Part shown: piece by piece, positions 25,418-33,570 of the stretch
Layout of the letters: each line of letters begins with the position of its first letter
Position numbering within the stretch: the stretch's first letter is position 1
Assembly: GCA_013215945.1 (NCBI GenBank)
Contig: JABSOM010000007.1
Location: 124,001 to 188,000, forward strand
Reading direction: 5' to 3'
DNA length: 64,000 nucleotides
From: Campylobacteraceae bacterium
GTDB lineage: Bacteria > Campylobacterota > Campylobacteria > Campylobacterales > Arcobacteraceae
The notes under the pieces: generated by a model
Seen by the model: only the letters and a program-made list of their open reading frames with translations
What the model was told of the DNA's origin: nothing
Databases searched by the model: none
Position numbers and translations under genes: made by a program

Positions 25418-25709
25418 GTATCAACTCCTGTATTATACTTAATTCGTCAATTAAACCCTGTTTGTAATTGGGATTTTTGACATTGTTTACTTTCACTTTT
25501 TGTCGTTTTATTTCTTCATCAAAGTCATGTAAAAAGTTTTTTTCTTTGTTTAAAAAAAAATAAATCATCTCATTTAACCAAAGACTTGCATCCACGCGTC
25601 CTTTTTTATATTTATCACTTAAGGTATTTTGTGAATTGTATTTATAAAAACTTATATGGCTATCACATTGCCTTGATATTTGTTCTAATTTTTGGCTTGA
25701 TTTATTCAT
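25398..25709 (-). CDS. hypothetical protein, 103 residues
   Basis: No family recognised. Soluble, charged and mostly helical, with no signal peptide, membrane segment or catalytic motif. The central LWLNEMIYFFLNKEKNFLHDFDEEIKRQK and C-terminal IDELSIIQELIHDRDF segments look amphipathic, so a coiled-coil or dimer is possible. The following membrane microprotein overlaps its end, suggesting a two-gene unit. Confidence 0.6.
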   Translation of the reverse strand: MNKSSQKLEQISRQCDSHISFYKYNSQNTLSDKYKKGRVDASLWLNEMIYFFLNKEKNFLHDFDEEIKRQKVKVNNVKNPNYKQGLIDELSIIQELIHDRDFN

Positions 25710-25881
25710 AGTTTATACTAACAAAAAGAAAGATATTGTTTAAAAAAGATTACAATATGAAAGATTATGTGAAGCAGATAAATAAGACTTGATTAAAAGA
25801 AGTACATTTAGGAAGAAGAGAGTTTTAAGCCTTGCTGTAATAAAATATTTAATGTGCTCTTTTTATTTATAAAGGATACTT

Positions 25882-26226
25882 ATGTCAAAGGATAATTCAT
25901 CTAAATCTGTAAAAGAAGATGAAAAAACAATTCAAAATGCAAAAAATACTTTAAAACAAAAAAAGCATGAACTGCATAATCTTTCTGTTCTTTTTTCTTT
26001 TTTAGGAAATGAAGAAAGAATACAAATAGTTTATTTACTTCTCAAACATAAAAAATTATCTCTTTGTACTTTAAGTGATATCTTAAATATAAAATCACGC
26101 CTACTTGTCAAAGATTTAAAGAAATTAAAAGATGCAGGAATATTACACAGTAAAAGAGAAACATTAATTTTATGCTATTTTATCAAGCCATCCTTAGTAA
26201 AACAAATAAAAATACTCTTATTATAA
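25882..26226 (+). CDS. ArsR-like winged-helix regulator
   Basis: A charged helical N-terminus (about 1-35) precedes a winged-helix domain (about 36-114): LFSFLGNEERIQIVYLLL, then LCTLSDILNIKSRLLVKDLKKLKDAGIL as the recognition region, then a wing with KRETLILCYFIK. The classical ArsR metal site (ELCVCDL) is not conserved; only one Cys stands at that place (LSLCTLSD). So it may sense through other residues or not bind metal. It lies 12 bp upstream of the Cys-rich GDCCVxC gene, a pairing that also occurs in metal-linked loci. Start follows AAAGGATACTT. Confidence 0.8.
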   Translation: MSKDNSSKSVKEDEKTIQNAKNTLKQKKHELHNLSVLFSFLGNEERIQIVYLLLKHKKLSLCTLSDILNIKSRLLVKDLKKLKDAGILHSKRETLILCYFIKPSLVKQIKILLL

Positions 26227-26238
26227 AAAGGATAAATT

Positions 26239-26439
26239 ATGAAAATTATTTTGGAATCTGTTCTTACGTGCCCTTTTTGCAAGTATGAAAAAAAAGAGAT
26301 TATGAAAGAAGATTCTTGTGCTTATTTTTATGAGTGTACAAATTGTAATAAAATTTTAAAAGCACAGAAAAAAGATTGCTGTGTTTTTTGTTCGTATGGC
26401 AGTATTGTTTGTCCTTCAAAACAAGGGAAATTGTCATAA
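26239..26439 (+). CDS. Cys-rich GDCCVxC-type protein
   Basis: 66 residues with nine cysteines: CPFC (11, 14), Cys27, CTNC (33, 36), DCCVFC (47, 48, 51) and Cys58. The segment KKDCCVFCSYGSIVCP matches the family named for GDCCVxC, in which some members carry selenocysteine; here all positions are plain Cys and the leading Gly is Lys. A zinc-ribbon followed by a reactive thiol motif is the likely architecture. It is co-transcribed with the ArsR-like gene, so a metal or redox stress role is inferred. A decayed second copy lies at 29748-29907. Confidence 0.8.
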   Translation: MKIILESVLTCPFCKYEKKEIMKEDSCAYFYECTNCNKILKAQKKDCCVFCSYGSIVCPSKQGKLS

Positions 26440-26460
26440 GAATAGATTTTAAGTTTTATT

Positions 26461-27177
26461 CTATTGATAATACTTGTTTATAATTTCATCAATTCTATTT
26501 GTCTCTAAAAGTTTTTTCCCTGCTTTTTTCAAAGAATCTTTGTATTGCATTTTCTTAGATTTATTCGAAAACTGAATCCATGCGGTATTTTTAGTAAGTA
26601 CATAGGGTTGGGCAAAATCATTTATGTTTAATCCAAGAAGTTTTAGTTGGTATATAATAATTTCTTTAGGACCAATTATGGCATCGATATTATGATACTG
26701 CAACATTAATATGGCATTTTTATAATCTTGTACAGGAGTAATATTAAGCTGTTTATTTTTTGAGCGAAAAGCATTATACCTAACCCCTCGAGGTGTTGCC
26801 ATGTGTAATCCCAACAAATCTTCATAACTAGAGATTTTTAAGCCTTTTTTCCCAAGAACAATTGTTTCTAAATCATACATAGCAAGGAGTTTTTCGCTAA
26901 AACCTTCACTGTAATCTGATAAAAAGAAAATAGCAAAATCAATTTTCCCCAATTCCAAATGGTGTAACATCCTTTTATAAGGCAGTAATTTCACTTCCAG
27001 TTTTATATTCAATTCTTGTTCTAGGCTTTGAATGATGTCATAGCTTATTCCAGTAAGTTTTCCTTCTTCTATATAAGCATAAGGAACAATATTAAATAAA
27101 CCCACACGTAACTTTTCATTAGCATAGCTATAGATGGAAAAAAAAAGGAAATACACGATAAGAATAAGTTTTTTCAT
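26461..27177 (-). CDS. periplasmic solute-binding-like protein (amino-acid ABC type)
   Basis: Signal peptide about 1-19 (ending SYA), then a type 2 periplasmic binding fold: LRVGLFNIVPYAYIEEGKLTGISYDIIQSL at the N-terminus, GKIDFAIFFLS in the middle and a C-terminal helix around ETNRIDEIINKYYQ. The length of 238 is normal for the PBPb family. No permease or ATPase gene is adjacent, so it may act as a stand-alone sensor-type binding protein. The ligand is unknown. Confidence 0.8.
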   Translation of the reverse strand: MKKLILIVYFLFFSIYSYANEKLRVGLFNIVPYAYIEEGKLTGISYDIIQSLEQELNIKLEVKLLPYKRMLHHLELGKIDFAIFFLSDYSEGFSEKLLAMYDLETIVLGKKGLKISSYEDLLGLHMATPRGVRYNAFRSKNKQLNITPVQDYKNAILMLQYHNIDAIIGPKEIIIYQLKLLGLNINDFAQPYVLTKNTAWIQFSNKSKKMQYKDSLKKAGKKLLETNRIDEIINKYYQ

Positions 27178-27285
27178 CTGACATCCTTATAAAAATACTA
27201 ACATATAATTTCTATTTTTATGTTAAAAGCAGAATATGGATTGTTTAATAACTATACTGCTCTTTTCAAATCTAAAAAGAAGAAC

Positions 27286-27320
27286 TGTTTGAAAATTTAA
27301 AAAAACGATAATTTCAAACA
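27286..27320 (-). terminator. hairpin downstream of the response-regulator cyclase
   Basis: Inverted repeat TGTTTGAAA (27286-27294) and TTTCAAACA (27312-27320) with an A/T loop containing T7 on the minus strand. It lies 50 bp behind the stop of the cyclase gene at 27371 and ahead of the binding-protein promoter. The role as terminator is tentative. Confidence 0.4.
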
Positions 27321-27370
27321 ATTATTAAGCTAAGAATAGAGACAACAAAAAAAAATTTCTGTTTGTTCCC

Positions 27371-28636
27371 TTAGGCATGACATACCTGATTTCTACCGTT
27401 TTCTTTTGCTTGGTAAAGTGCTTTATCCGCGCGTAGAATCATACTGTCTAAAGTATCATTTCCTTGAAACTGTGTAATCCCAAAACTACAGGTTATTTTT
27501 TTAGCAATATGAAAGGGCTCTTTTTCAATATACTCTCTTAAATGATTTGCAATTTCTAGTCCTTTACTTAAGTCAACATCAAAAGCCAGTACAAACTCTT
27601 CTCCTCCCCATCGTGCAAAGAGATCATTTTCTCTTGTATGTGATTGAATAAGTCTTGAGAGATGTTTTAATATGTCATCTCCTACTAAATGTCCATGATT
27701 ATCATTAACGTTTTTAAAGAAGTCAATATCTAAGAGTAAAAATACCAAAGGGTTTTCATTCTCTTTTGCCTGTGTCATTTTCATATCTATTAGACGATTA
27801 AACATATGCCTATTGTATATTTGTGTTAAAGAATCATGACTGGCTTCATGCTTATATTCTAAAGAGAGTTGCGATATTTGTGTTATATCTGTTAAGGTGA
27901 TAATATATTGATCAGAAAAAGACTTGGCTTTTAGATTAAAAATATATTCTTTTTTATTCTGTTTAATTTTCACAAGAAGGTCTTCTTCAATAGAGCGTTT
28001 CATAACTTCTTCTGTCCACGTAATTTGCCCTTTGACCAATGCTAAACTAAAATAACCTTCTTCTTCTAAAAAAGTATGAGATAAATAATCATGTTTTAAA
28101 GTAAATTCTTCAATACTTGTTACTGAAAAAAAATCAAGAAAAGCATTGTTTACGGTTAAGTCCAAACAGCCATCGGTAACTAACACAAGATTGTCTTGAG
28201 AGTCTAAAATACTGCGGGTATACTCTTTTTCTTTCATAATTAATTTATCTTGTTCTCGTGATTTTAAATGAAAGCGCATACGAGAAAGCAATTCTGTAGG
28301 GTTATAGGGTTTATTAATATAATCGTCACCTCCTACATTGAAGCATGTTTCAATTGTTTTATCATCATTATTTGCAGTGACAAAGATGATAGGAATATCT
28401 TTGGTTTTTTTGTTTGATTTAATTATTTTTGCACATTCAAAACCATCTATTTCAGGCATCATTACATCAAGTAAAATTAAGTCAATTTTTTCCTTAAGTA
28501 AAATTTTCAAACCTTCACGAGCAGAAATAGCAATGAGTACATTGTATTGATCTTCAGCCATATATTCAATTACACTTTGAATGGTAAACAAATTTGTATC
28601 TACATCATCAATGCAAAGTATATTTTTTTTCATCAT
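27371..28636 (-). CDS. response regulator with PAS-like and GGDEF domains
   Basis: Two-component output protein that makes c-di-GMP. Receiver at about 1-120: acidic pair in LCIDDVDTN, phospho-Asp in LILLDVMMPEIDG (about 56), Lys in YINKPYNP. A PAS-like segment spans about 140-255 (ILDSQDNLVLVTDGCLDLTVNN). The GGDEF domain (about 265-421) has DIDFFKNVNDNHGHLVGDD and the active loop ARWGGEEFVLAF. The inhibitory RxxD site is present (REND, five residues ahead), so product feedback is likely, unlike the cyclase at 4018-5517. No kinase gene is adjacent. Start follows AGGAAAATGGC. Confidence 0.92.
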   Translation of the reverse strand: MMKKNILCIDDVDTNLFTIQSVIEYMAEDQYNVLIAISAREGLKILLKEKIDLILLDVMMPEIDGFECAKIIKSNKKTKDIPIIFVTANNDDKTIETCFNVGGDDYINKPYNPTELLSRMRFHLKSREQDKLIMKEKEYTRSILDSQDNLVLVTDGCLDLTVNNAFLDFFSVTSIEEFTLKHDYLSHTFLEEEGYFSLALVKGQITWTEEVMKRSIEEDLLVKIKQNKKEYIFNLKAKSFSDQYIITLTDITQISQLSLEYKHEASHDSLTQIYNRHMFNRLIDMKMTQAKENENPLVFLLLDIDFFKNVNDNHGHLVGDDILKHLSRLIQSHTRENDLFARWGGEEFVLAFDVDLSKGLEIANHLREYIEKEPFHIAKKITCSFGITQFQGNDTLDSMILRADKALYQAKENGRNQVCHA

Positions 28637-29051
28637 GCCATTTTCCTAGATATTTTATAATCATAATATTCACACAAAGTACCATATATTTTTACTATTA
28701 TTTTACTTTAATCTAAAATAATAATAAAGATCAAAGAATCAGAAGAAAGTTTTAATACTCACTTAGAAAGCTTGAGTAAAATATATAATTATATACATGT
28801 TTATTATAATATCAAATTCATTATAAAAATCTATCTCAAACTAAAAAATAAACAGTGATAAAAATTCCTAGGAAAAATACGATTAGAAGAGATTCTGATA
28901 GTTTTTGCTGATTTTATCCTTGTCTATCTAAATAAATTAAGTTCATATTTTTTTGGAAATTTGTAAATATGATAATCTCTATTAAAATTAAACCTACACG
29001 TTAACTACACGTAAATTATATATAATCCAACTAAAAAAACAAAGGAAATAA
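28637..29051. promoter_or_regulatory. divergent intergenic region with tandem ACACGT repeats
   Basis: 415 bp between divergent genes, strongly A/T-rich with no open frame I can support. Near its right end ACACGT occurs twice, 11 bp apart (CTACACGTTAA then CTACACGTAA, 28994-29014). A TATAAT box follows at 29021-29026 and a ribosome site (AAAGGAAAT) precedes the ATG at 29052. The repeats sit where an activator or repressor of the 29052 gene would bind. Confidence 0.4.
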
Positions 29052-29363
29052 ATGAAAAATATTACAAAAACTTTATTAGGAATAAGCGCAATGTTATTAC
29101 CTCTGTCATTAATGGCAGGTGAGATTAAATATTCACAAAATGAGCAAACAGTTGTACAAGGAGGCCTTAGTATTAATCTTACTGGTATCATAAATAAAAA
29201 ACAAATTAAAGGTGAAACTGGAACTATAAGTATTGATGGTAAAAATGTATTTATCGATAAACATACCTTTATATCGAACTCTAATGGAATTAAAATTGGA
29301 GAAAAAGTAATTGTTATTGCACATCACCAATACGGAAAACTTTTTGCTCTTAGTGTAAATTAA
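29052..29363 (+). CDS. small secreted protein, DUF5666-like
   Basis: Signal peptide about 1-22 (ending LMAGE), then about 80 residues of beta-rich sequence. The pattern of GTISIDGKNVFIDKHTFI followed by IGEKVIVIAHHQYGKLFALSVN (valine/isoleucine strands, GxxV, a KLFAL end) resembles the DUF5666 small beta-barrel fold, but this is a likeness by eye. Periplasmic location expected. Stands alone behind a putative regulated promoter. Confidence 0.65.
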   Translation: MKNITKTLLGISAMLLPLSLMAGEIKYSQNEQTVVQGGLSINLTGIINKKQIKGETGTISIDGKNVFIDKHTFISNSNGIKIGEKVIVIAHHQYGKLFALSVN

Positions 29364-29380
29364 AATAATACTATTAAAAT

Positions 29381-29413
29381 AGTGAAGATTAAATAAAAAT
29401 AAAAATCTTCACT
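29381..29413 (+). terminator. hairpin after the secreted protein gene
   Basis: Perfect 10-bp arms AGTGAAGATT (29381-29390) and AATCTTCACT (29404-29413) around an A-rich loop, 17 bp behind the stop at 29363. No long T tract follows. Confidence 0.5.
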
Positions 29414-29613
29414 TAATTAAAGAAAACCACTGCTTGTTTTTAAGTTAAATTCCATTGTTTGCTAGCCAGTTAAATAAAAACCCAAGCCCATTAAATTATA
29501 TATTAATGTTATATTAGTTACTAATTATATAATTTATTCATAAGATTAAAATTACATATTTCAAATAAATTTTTTTACATTTTTCTCCCTTAAATAAGGA
29601 AAACTCCCATTTT
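29414..29613. other. A/T-rich spacer without a recognisable gene
   Basis: About 200 bp with many stops in all frames and no ribosome site or hairpin I can support. It leads into a scar of decayed coding sequence (29614-29907). Confidence 0.5.
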
Positions 29614-29751
29614 TTACTTTGTTTGTTTTACAGAGTTATGAATTAAAGATAGAAGAAGATTACACGCTTTTACTTTATCTTGATCAGCTGTAATTTGATA
29701 TTGTTTATCCCTTTTTCTAAAACAGATATTTCTGAAACCATTTTTACTAAA
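29614..29751 (-). pseudogene. C-terminal fragment of an unidentified protein
   Basis: The minus strand stays open for 46 codons to a stop at 29614, with protein-like content: NGFRNICFRKRDKQY, then ITADQDKVKACNLLLSL and IHNSVKQTK. There is no start codon. Its upstream end runs straight into the decayed copy of the GDCCVxC locus on the other strand, so the parent gene was cut there. The family is not recognised. Confidence 0.4.
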
Positions 29752-29907
29752 ACAAATAAAAATACCCTTATTATAAAAAAGATAAATTATGAAAATTATT
29801 TTGAATCTGTTCTTATTGCCCTTTTATACGTATGAAAAAAAGAGATTATAAAATAAAATTGCTGTGTTTTTTCTTCTTAAGGCAGTATTATTTGTTCTTC
29901 AAAACAA
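29748..29907 (+). pseudogene. decayed second copy of the GDCCVxC gene
   Basis: This stretch matches 26199-26427 almost base for base: the end of the ArsR-like gene (AAACAAATAAAAATAC), the ribosome site, GATAAATTATGAAAATTATT, then the GDCCVxC frame. It has lost one G in codon 5-6, about 70 bp of the middle, and several cysteine codons, so no product is possible. The tail ATTGCTGTGTTTTTT and TTCTTCAAAACAAG still aligns. It is a duplication remnant about 3.5 kb from the intact gene, in the same orientation. Confidence 0.8.
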
Positions 29908-29919
29908 GAAGAACAAGTA

Positions 29920-31068
29920 TTATTTTACTAAATGATTTGGAAAATCAAGGGGAGTCTCACAACAACATTGATCCATAACTTGTTGCAGTTGTTTTTTTAA
30001 TATTGTAATAGTATGATCTCCCCCTTTTTCACCTAAAGCTCCCACTCCATACATAAAAGGTCGGCCCATAAAACAAAATTCAGCTCCAGCTGCAAGGACT
30101 CTTGCAATATCTGGACCTGTTCTAATACCAGAATCCATCATGATTTTTATTTGATTTTTGTATTTTTCTACAATTTCAAGGGTAGGTTTAATAGATGATT
30201 GCCCTGCATCTAATTGTCTGCCACCATGATTAGAAACAATAATTCCATCCAAACCCAAATCAATAGATTTTTGTGTATCTTCAAGAGAACACACACCTTT
30301 TATTACTAGGTTTCCTTTCCATTTATCTCTTATGGCTTTTATTTTATCTTCATTTAATCGGCCATTAAATGTTTTGTTCATAAAAAGAGCAAGGTGTTTT
30401 AAGTTCATACCTTTATCCATGTATTTTTTTAAGGTTTTGAATTCTGGTTGTCCATGAAGAAGGGTTTTTATTGCCCATTGTGGGGAGCTCATAATTTGAA
30501 GTATATTATTCAGAGTAATTCTTGGGGGAATAGCTAAACCATTTTTAATTTCTTTATTTCTATATCCAAAAGAAGGTACATCTGCTAAGATAACAAAAGT
30601 TTTAATACCTGCGTTATAGCAGCGCTCCATAAGATCATCTCTTAAAGAATCTTCAACAGGGTGATACAATTGAAACCAAGCTTTACCTTCTGTAATTTCT
30701 GCTATTTTTTCAATGGAAGCAGTTGATACAGTACTAAGAGTATAAGGAATATTATGTTTAAAAGCAGCTTTTGCTAATATCTCAGCAGCACCAGGCCAAA
30801 TTAGGCCTTGTAATCCTACGGGAGCTATACCAAAAGGCGCATCATAAGTCTCACCAAATAATTCTGTTTGCATAGAAATTTTATCGTATTTTCTAAGGTA
30901 ATATGGTTTCAGCTCTATGTCTCTAATCTCTTTTGTATTTTTAATCAGATTGATTTCTTCATTACACCCTCCGTCCAGATAATCAAATGCAAAACCAGGA
31001 ATTCTAGCTTTTGCTTTTAATCGCAGTGAGTCAATTGAGGGAAAATTTGGATTATACTCTTCAGTCAT
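29920..31068 (-). CDS. lldD: FMN-dependent alpha-hydroxy acid oxidase/dehydrogenase (L-lactate dehydrogenase type)
   Basis: Flavoenzyme that oxidises L-lactate or a similar 2-hydroxy acid, usually passing electrons to the quinone pool. Motifs: DYLDGGCNEE near the N-terminus, PFGIAPVGLQGLIWPGAA FMN region, GKAWFQLYHP, then VIKGV (FMN Lys), and the active-site SNHGGRQLD (catalytic His, Arg) with DSGIRTGPDIARVLAAGA and GRPFMYG for phosphate binding. 382 residues, full length. The C-terminus has an unusual CCC triplet. The substrate is taken as lactate from family likeness; other hydroxy acids are possible. Start follows AAAGGACTTTAA. Confidence 0.88.
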   Translation of the reverse strand: MTEEYNPNFPSIDSLRLKAKARIPGFAFDYLDGGCNEEINLIKNTKEIRDIELKPYYLRKYDKISMQTELFGETYDAPFGIAPVGLQGLIWPGAAEILAKAAFKHNIPYTLSTVSTASIEKIAEITEGKAWFQLYHPVEDSLRDDLMERCYNAGIKTFVILADVPSFGYRNKEIKNGLAIPPRITLNNILQIMSSPQWAIKTLLHGQPEFKTLKKYMDKGMNLKHLALFMNKTFNGRLNEDKIKAIRDKWKGNLVIKGVCSLEDTQKSIDLGLDGIIVSNHGGRQLDAGQSSIKPTLEIVEKYKNQIKIMMDSGIRTGPDIARVLAAGAEFCFMGRPFMYGVGALGEKGGDHTITILKKQLQQVMDQCCCETPLDFPNHLVK

Positions 31069-31270
31069 TTAAAGTCCTTTAATCTTAATAATCAATATTA
31101 TAATATAAAATATACAAATTAGATGGAATAATCAAATTATTTCTAGAATTTTTCTTTTTTGATGTTTTAGTTTTGCTAAGATTAAGTTAGAGTTTTTTTC
31201 AAATAGAATCTAAACTATAAATGTTAGATTTACAATAAAAATGAAGTTTTGTTTTAAGGGAGTTTGTCTT

Positions 31271-31354
31271 TGGTGCACCTGAGAAGATTTGAACTTCCAC
31301 TCCGTTAAGAACGAGCCCCTCAAGCCCGCGCGTCTACCGTTCCGCCACAGATGC
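31271..31354 (-). tRNA. tRNA-Leu (anticodon GAG)
   Basis: Complete cloverleaf: acceptor GCATCTG pairs with CAGGTGC, D stem GCG/CGC, anticodon stem CGGGC/GCTCG with loop TTGAGGG (anticodon GAG), a class II long variable arm, T arm with TTCAAAT, and encoded ACCA. 84 nt. Reads Leu codons CTC and CTT. Stands alone between lldD and a chemoreceptor. Confidence 0.96.
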
Positions 31355-31399
31355 AAATAAGATTGACAGTTTAGCAAAGATGAGCTTATTAATAATTTA

Positions 31400-31433
31400 A
31401 AATAAGTTAAAAGTGAAATCTTTTAACTTATTT
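31400..31433 (-). terminator. hairpin downstream of the chemoreceptor gene
   Basis: Perfect 14-bp arms AAATAAGTTAAAAG and CTTTTAACTTATTT around a 6-base loop, 13 bp behind the stop of the minus-strand chemoreceptor gene and followed on that strand by T-rich sequence. Confidence 0.7.
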
Positions 31434-31446
31434 AATAAAAAGGCAT

Positions 31447-33570
31447 TTAATTATCTCTAAATTTCTTTTCGTTAACTGCATTTAAAATCTGTTTTGCAAT
31501 TTCTGCTGTATGCTGAGCTATTTCATGTGTTTTAGATGCTACAGAAGCATTGTTTTGTGTTTGTTGATCTAAACGATTAACCACATTGTTAATTTGTTCT
31601 ATACTTATTTTTTCTTCCCTAGAAGAAATTTCAATGTCTTTAATAATATCAGTAGATTTTGAAATATTCTCATTTAGGACGTTATATCCAAGAATCATTT
31701 TATCTGCTATTATTTTACCTGCATTGGTTTTACTTGTTGCATTTTCAACCAAGGTTTTAATTTCTTTTGCCGCTTCTGCTGATCTGCTTGCAAGGTTTCT
31801 TACTTCTTGAGCAACAACGGCAAAACCTTTTCCTGCTTCCCCAGCAGTTGCGGCTTCAACGGCTGCATTAAGAGAGAGAATATTGGTTTGGAAAGCAATT
31901 TGATCAATTATTGTAATTGCATCTGCAATTGCTTGTGTTTGTTCATTAATCTCATTCATTGATACAACGGTGGAATTTGCTAGCTCTTGCCCATCTTTTA
32001 TAGATAAAGACAAGTCATTTGAATATCCTGACATTGTATTTATTCTAACCGTATTACTGCTTACCGTACTTGTAATTTCTTCAAGCGCAGCGGCGGTTTC
32101 TTCTAAAGATACAGCCGTTTCATTTGATGCTTTATTAAGAATATCAACATTTTCTAAAAGAATTTTTGAACTGTTTTGTAATTCTATTCCATTGTGTTTA
32201 TTTTCTCTTAACATATTGTTAATAATTTCGCATAAACTGTTTAATCCTCTGGAAATATTTCCATCAGGATTATCTATTTGATTTACAAAATTTAAAGAAG
32301 AATATTCTTCTAAACGATGTAAAATAGGGTTTATATCGCTGTTTACATTTTCATTGATTGTTGAAATCATTTTATTTAAGATATCTTTTAAATCATTCAA
32401 TGATTGATTTGATGTTGAAGAAAGAACTTGTTTATCAAGTTTTCCACTATTAATATGTTCTACTACATTTTTCACATCTTCAATTAATGCTCTGTCTTTA
32501 TCTAATTTACTTGCAATGACTTCCATTTCTTTGTCAAGAATTGCTCCCATAAATCCAAATTCATCTTTACTTATTATATTTAGTTTATGAATGTTTTTTT
32601 CTTCCCCATTTAAATATTTAAAAAATGAAATCATTCCTTCTTCAAGTATTTTTAAAGGAGCTAAAATTTTTACTAATGAGAAGTATAGAATTACTAAAAT
32701 GAGTATTAAAAGTACAATGTATAAAAGTATTGCAAAAAGTAAGTCTTGATTAATTTGTTCAAACACAGTATTTTTGTCTAATTCTATTACTAAGTACCAT
32801 GAAGTAGCAGGTATTTGGCTATAGGCTAATAATTTCTCTACATTGTTTTCACTCGCAAAGCCAAAGTCACTTTTTTTATCTGTTCTTATTTGTTTGAATA
32901 AAGAGCTTTCTTTTGAAAGAAGTTTTTCATTTTTATGAATAAGCATAGTTCCATTTTCATCTAATAAGTACGCTATACCATTATTTTTAATACTTACATT
33001 TAAAATTGAGTCAACTACTGTATCTAAAAAGATATCTGATCCAACTACACCCAATACTTTTCCATTTCTTATTAAAGGCATGAAAACCGTAACAACTAGT
33101 TTTTTAGTAGTGATATCAACATAGGGTTTTGTAATTCCTGCTTTTTTTATGTCTACTGCTTTTTTATACCATGGGCGAGACCTTGCATCAAAATTATCTT
33201 TTTTGATACTTAGGAATTCCCCACTGGATAAAAGGAAATCACCATTATCTTCAAAACCTACATATAAATCTGCAAACTTCCCCGCTTTTTTCCCTAAACT
33301 AAGTTTTTCTAAAATTATTTTGTTATGAATATTTAAGTTATCACTTGGTAATGTTTCTTCAACAGCTTTTACAATATCTATTTTCGATTTTAAATAACTA
33401 TTGATAAACTTAGATGTTTGTTTTGCTAAGTTTAGTTCTTCTTCTTTTACTAAGCTATTTTGCGCTGCATATTCATTTTGCGTATTGTAAAAACCCAAAA
33501 TAAAAAATGAACAGGATATACTTAATAATAAAAGAATTAAGAGTTTTCCTTTGATGCTTTTTATCTTCAT
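31447..33570 (-). CDS. methyl-accepting chemotaxis protein with dCache sensor
   Basis: Transmembrane chemoreceptor. Helix 1 at about 8-27, periplasmic double-Cache domain at about 35-270, helix 2 at about 278-300, a HAMP-like stalk and the cytoplasmic signalling coiled coil at about 460-700. The Cache ligand pocket shows [11 protein letters not shown] and [13 protein letters not shown], the pattern of amino-acid-type dCache_1 sensors. The hairpin tip reads [20 protein letters not shown] followed by [19 protein letters not shown], where it would contact CheA/CheW. No C-terminal NWETF-type CheR tether. Ligand not predictable beyond amino acid or related. Confidence 0.93.

Follow-up and report, generated by a model that had tools for sequence, protein, structure and literature searches.

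A decayed arsR'-GDCCVxC copy abuts a cusA relic beside tRNA-Leu(gag) in a Campylobacteraceae genome

Results

Genes and features at the locus

The window, the whole stretch of 64,000 nucleotides that was analysed (G000:C7:124001-188000), lies within a 3.24-Mb genome (G000) whose gene content looks like that of the Arcobacter group, and the coordinates given below are window positions. It was compared with a set of 104 genomes of the family, in which G001 is a sister species and G002 and G003 are congeners. Close to 26 kb the window carries an intact pair of genes, encoding an ArsR-like regulator and a GDCCVxC protein. Further along, on the 3' side of tRNA-Leu(gag), is a variable segment that is found in G000 only, and in which three blocks follow one another: a relic of a cusA gene, a relic of an arsR-GDCCVxC pair (arsR'-GDCCVxC, since only the end of arsR is present) and an lldD-like gene, which is the sole gene-sized ORF of the segment. 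The two relics touch each other. Positions and supporting evidence are collected in Table 1.

Table 1. Features of the locus and of the element in the congener G002 (window coordinates unless a contig is named)
Feature	Position	Strand	Evidence
ArsR-like regulator gene, intact, 114 aa; parent of the copy's left end	25882..26226	+	ORF; HTH_5/HTH_11 (Pfam)
GDCCVxC gene, intact, 66 aa; parent of the copy	26239..26439	+	NF041374, 84.1 bits (cut-off 40)
G000-only segment	29481..31229	.	blastn of window 25500-32500 vs L021 (G001): homology ends at 29480, restarts at 31230
Relic from the interior of a CusA/CzcA-type RND pump gene, frameshifted, in-frame stops	29583..29738	-	DNA match to G002 cusA
Apparent stop TAA	29614..29616	-	codon alignment: opposite Gln CAA of intact cusA
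Left junction	29735..29738	.	sequence comparison
Relic of arsR 3' end and GDCCVxC gene	29735..29908	+	alignment with 26185-26425
Right-junction hairpin	29889..29919	.	arms: GDCCVxC relic and lldD 3' flank
lldD-like FMN-dependent L-lactate dehydrogenase gene, intact, 382 aa	29920..31068	-	PF01070, 386.9 bits
tRNA-Leu(gag)	31271..31354	-	ARAGORN, Rfam
G002 element	L223 535-605, 706-1938, 13011-13094 (G002:C301)		tRNA-Leu(gag) and partial copy flanking; integrase ORFs

The intact pair and its decayed copy

The intact GDCCVxC gene is a member of the GDCCVxC domain (seleno)protein family (NF041374) and gave the single match above 40 bits when the G000 genome was searched with that profile, the relic falling below membership. 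The ArsR-like gene scores 50.8 bits with NF033788, under the cut-off of 55. Judging from dN/dS between G000 and the sister species (0.23 for arsR and 0.19 for the GDCCVxC gene, with six neighbours at 0.06-0.29), both genes look to be under purifying selection. Just upstream of the regulator gene, at 25750-25803 on the plus strand, there is also an ArsR-motif-like stretch with a stop (E 0.11 and 0.48), which is either a relic or a chance match.

A search of the genome with 26150-26480 returned the intact locus and two further pieces, 29729-29875 (84%) and 29851-29908 (88%). The first-pass annotation had described a decayed copy of the 26.2-kb GDCCVxC locus here, on the plus strand, and pairwise alignment bears this out far above chance: the local alignment of copy and parent scored 232.5, whereas none of 500 Markov-resampled controls exceeded 88, and in a tighter alignment of 26185-26425 with 29735-29908 the copy is identical to the intact G000 sequence in 160 of 173 columns and to that of the sister species in 159. 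Parent and copy share direct repeats of 75 nt (89%), 58 nt (88%) and 41 nt (80%) on the same strand at a spacing of about 3.5 kb. The left edge of the copy, previously placed at 29748, is in fact at about 29735, and the copy takes in the final 13 codons of the ArsR-like gene, the spacer between the two genes and GDCCVxC from its start codon to about codon 62. The copied block stops short of the GDCCVxC stop codon, leaving a copy that is truncated at both ends.

The lesions inside the copy are numerous. In all, the copy is short of 68 bases, lost in blocks of 46 and 16 and in small indels, and has 1 extra base; several of the indels shift the frame, in agreement with the internal loss of about 70 bp and the frameshift that had been annotated. 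The relic's start codon is at 29789, and within the first codons after it 1 base is lost. Its motif reads N-C-C-V-F-S-S-stop where the intact gene has D-C-C-V-F-C-S-Y: Asp is changed to Asn, Cys to Ser and the Tyr codon to a stop. Two motif residues, the Asp and the last Cys, are thus gone from the relic, which is also frameshifted and in both respects unlike members of NF041374. The copy thus shows two of the features by which a pseudogene is recognised, homology to an intact gene and disabling lesions. Changes specific to the relic number 9 in the 173 columns of this single known copy and no region was found to be slower than the rest (Fisher p 1.0); the best-preserved block, with 62 of 68 positions retained, spans the start codon and the stretch before it.

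The adjoining relic is an internal part of cusA

On the minus strand, 29614-29748 had been taken for the end of a truncated gene. It is instead an internal stretch of a cusA-type gene, at about 29583-29738, whose DNA aligns with G002 cusA at 69.8% over 159 columns (E 1.7e-18) and with G003 cusA at 68.6% (E 8.7e-17). The alignment score of the relic was 140, and the highest in 300 shuffles was 74. When 30 cusA-carrying loci were compared, G002 scored 121, G003 113, G121 78 and the other 27 at most 67, again with a maximum of 74 in 300 shuffles; the third-best match (G121, L195, E 1.8e-9) was not relied on. Since the matched part corresponds to about codons 174-222 of the 1053-codon gene, the relic is internal. 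The TAA that gave the impression of a gene end aligns with a Gln codon of intact cusA. When the register was fixed, the bases past the TAA agreed with cusA at 17 of 33 positions (shuffle p 0.004). An earlier test, in which this tail was free to align locally, gave no significant result, with 1673 of 2000 shuffles doing as well. Furthermore, the two halves of the relic sit in different frames and it must therefore be frameshifted near 29706-29717.

The peptides of the cusA relic had no match in Pfam or NCBIfam profile scans. With the TIGR00914 profile there was no match for the relic, and none in G000 above the cut-off. It is the DNA and tblastn matches that identify the relic as being of the CusA/CzcA type: its DNA is homologous to an intact member of the TIGR00914 heavy-metal RND pump family, but only about 5% of the gene is left, frameshifted and with stops. 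Full CusA (TIGR00914 over cut-off) occurs in 72 of the 104 family genomes, including both congeners; neither G000 nor the sister species is among them.

Nine intergenic stretches between 25.2 and 33.8 kb were also compared with 16 proteins, and beyond the cusA and GDCCVxC relics only chance-level matches were obtained (E >= 0.1). Lenient blastn gave chance matches between A/T-rich sequences down to about 5e-7, and only far stronger ones were used.

Both joins lie within short shared sequences

The relics meet at the left junction, not at 29748 as first annotated. The junction reads AAAC, as do cusA (reverse complement) and the arsR 3' end of the sister species, and the G000 arsR reads AAGC. 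On the other side, the last bases of the GDCCVxC relic, CTTCAAAACAAG, overlap the hairpin that follows lldD. Read on the lldD strand, GDCCVxC has CTTGTTTTGAAG and the lldD hairpin of G002 and G003 has CTTCTTTTGAAG; the two are alike at 11 of 12 positions, a match noticed by eye and not set against a null model. Each gene contributes one arm to the hairpin as it now stands (-10.5 kcal/mol), and no U-run follows the hairpin on the lldD strand. Both joins are thus placed within short sequences common to the joined partners, and such matches may have steered the joining; a 4-nt microhomology is common in DNA of 23% G+C, and AAAC can be a chance occurrence.

At E <= 1e-60, lldD has matches in 3 of the 104 family genomes, namely G000, G002 and G003, and none in the sister species. 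In both congeners it adjoins what we take, from reading the translations, to be NUDIX and aldehyde dehydrogenase genes.

The corresponding site in the sister species

Gene order is conserved in the sister species for the intact arsR-GDCCVxC pair, its neighbours and tRNA-Leu, and their nucleotide sequences are about 90-94% identical to those of G000 (88% around a gene for a 103-aa protein). The interval from the 103-aa gene to the tRNA, however, is filled by 282 bp without relation to the 1749-bp G000 segment, and at this site there is no cusA relic, no GDCCVxC relic and no lldD. The undisrupted neighbour gene that might have been expected here in a sister strain is therefore absent as well. 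As G002 and G003 both lack the 103-aa gene, they do not polarise the difference, which could be a gain in G000 or a loss in G001. The 103-aa protein itself (29052-29363) looks exported and has no Pfam or NCBIfam match; it has five matches in G000, two of them short, and none in G002 or G003.

Of the sites that distinguish the intact G000 and G001 sequences, the relic shares 5 with G000 and 4 with G001; a looser alignment gives 5 and 8. It is about equally close to the two intact copies, which implies an origin of the copy close to or earlier than their split, or else a relative as its source. This near-even division of the shared sites is why an origin on the G000 branch alone was rejected.

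The tRNA-Leu(gag) site in related genomes

In G002 the same tRNA-Leu(gag), beside the same MCP gene and presumably also beside atpE as in G000 (a label from reading the translation), borders an element of ~12 kb with two phage-integrase-family ORFs, a resolvase-type ORF and phage regulators, and with a 71-bp partial tRNA-Leu match at its far end. MazG-like and phage antirepressor genes are also present in it. The tRNA gene looks to be an integration site in the genus, and the site resembles a tRNA-associated integration hotspot in that the same tRNA is used by an integrase element in G002; the G000 segment differs in having neither an integrase nor an attachment-site copy, the marks of a genomic island which are both present in G002. 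The region 28601-31230 was searched for an att-like copy of the tRNA-Leu 3' end, and the best candidate (E 0.11) was rejected.

Elsewhere in the sister species (G001:C6, L226 1035-1132) there is an orphan partial tRNA-Leu of about 95 bp, 91% identical to the tRNA-Leu region of the window and not called as a tRNA, which is possibly a leftover attachment site. ORFs near it are, on our reading, presumably IS3-like. A literature search on tRNA-Leu genomic islands in Arcobacter found no paper.

Metal-related neighbours of the GDCCVxC family

The GDCCVxC family occurs in 6 of the 104 family genomes. Its neighbourhoods were examined at the best 80 genome loci of at least 569 confirmed relatives. A CusA-type match was present in the examined flanks of 13 of these 80 loci and of 0 of 52 viral loci. 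Among 147 immediate-neighbour ORFs, from 75 of the best 80 loci, 17 matched MerTP, 15 Pfam MerT, 18 HMA and 3 TIGR00914 (overlapping sets; E limits 1e-5 for Pfam and 1e-10 for NCBIfam). Of the families that can be recognised right next to GDCCVxC at the best 80 genome loci, those of mercury and copper genes are the most frequent, and a common metal-resistance origin of the relic pieces is plausible. The head-to-head order of the relics was seen in none of the loci viewed, a viewing that was not systematic; a single ancestral cusA/arsR/GDCCVxC cluster is not demonstrated, its order being found in none of the genomes read.

Discussion

The homologies of the pieces, the limits of those homologies, the lesions and the sister-species site without any of the three blocks are direct observations. 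From them we infer an order of events and a way of joining, and there is a high probability that 29583-29908 is a non-functional pseudogene scar which formed and decayed in this manner. Around the separation of G000 and G001, tRNA-Leu(gag) would have had nearby both a cusA-type pump gene and a second arsR-GDCCVxC pair, the latter duplicated from the locus 3.5 kb away or acquired from a close relative. Very short shared sequences, AAAC at the left join and, at the right, the near-identical 12-mer of the lldD 3' hairpin, would then have been the sites of deletions or illegitimate joins that fused the cusA interior with the arsR tail and the end of lldD with the GDCCVxC tail, and the pieces would later have decayed through frameshifts, small deletions and stop mutations.

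The scar is ordinary gene decay in a variable site. It is comparable to the bacterial pseudogene remnants catalogued in 64 prokaryote genomes (PMC522871), both being gene copies that are truncated and disabled, carry frameshifts and stops and lie in a variable region; there is no essential difference, the tight head-to-head join of two relics being slightly unusual. What the scar offers is a base-by-base view of metal-related gene turnover at a tRNA-flanking site in this lineage, and also a caution, as a short frame with a stop beside a duplicate is not necessarily the end of a truncated gene.

The tRNA hotspot may have played a part. It is possible, if doubtful, that the scar is the residue of a genomic island that integrated at tRNA-Leu(gag), brought in cusA together with the second arsR-GDCCVxC pair and was then mostly lost. 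This can hold together with the two deletion-type joins, since it names the source of the DNA. The G002 element, at the same locus and with its integrase-family ORFs and partial tRNA-Leu, is consistent with such an origin, as are the mercury and copper genes, and the CusA-type matches near 13 of the best 80 genome loci, that accompany GDCCVxC elsewhere. However, the G000 segment has no integrase and no second tRNA fragment, no cusA, GDCCVxC or lldD was recognised among the ORFs of the G002 element, lldD is located elsewhere in both congeners, and none of the 52 viral loci has a CusA match.

The account given in the first-pass annotation, that a local duplication or transposition placed arsR-GDCCVxC in a neighbouring gene and broke it, is unlikely. 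Its duplication part stands; the copy lies on the same strand about 3.5 kb off, and its left edge falls exactly at the truncated gene. Beyond the copy, however, comes lldD and not the missing 5' part of cusA, so that the breaking of a neighbour by the copy is not supported, and the copy is itself truncated at both ends. Transposition is without direct support because the segment contains no transposase ORF and no clean terminal repeat. The marks of an IS are likewise missing, with only imperfect A/T-rich inverted repeats present in 29481-31229; the pair 29524-29550/31078-31104 (81% over 27 nt), one of 12, was taken as A/T-rich background. Furthermore, the cusA relic has about 70% nucleotide identity to its nearest intact relative, which is in another species, so the age of the cusA break is not tied to the copy. 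As the sister species is also without full CusA, loss of the pump need not stem from the copy event. Two deletion-type joins fit the site better than a neighbour broken by the copy.

It is highly improbable that the relic is put to antisense use, with a 3' extension of the lldD transcript pairing with the arsR-GDCCVxC mRNA near its start codon as a brake, which would tie a metal-response gene to lactate use: the best-preserved block (62/68) does include the start codon with the bases that precede it, and on the lldD strand a U-run is missing behind the joint hairpin, but that block is no poorer in relic-specific changes than the remainder (Fisher p 1.0), G001 has no relic, and there was no RNA family match besides the tRNA.

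The parent GDCCVxC family, which was named in no paper found by our literature search, is of some side interest. In Flavihumibacter and Ferruginibacter (L051 and L080) the GDCCVxC match and a CusA-type gene share a strand, and no more than about 15 bp separate the start of the match from the end of that gene, a spacing that suggests an operon.
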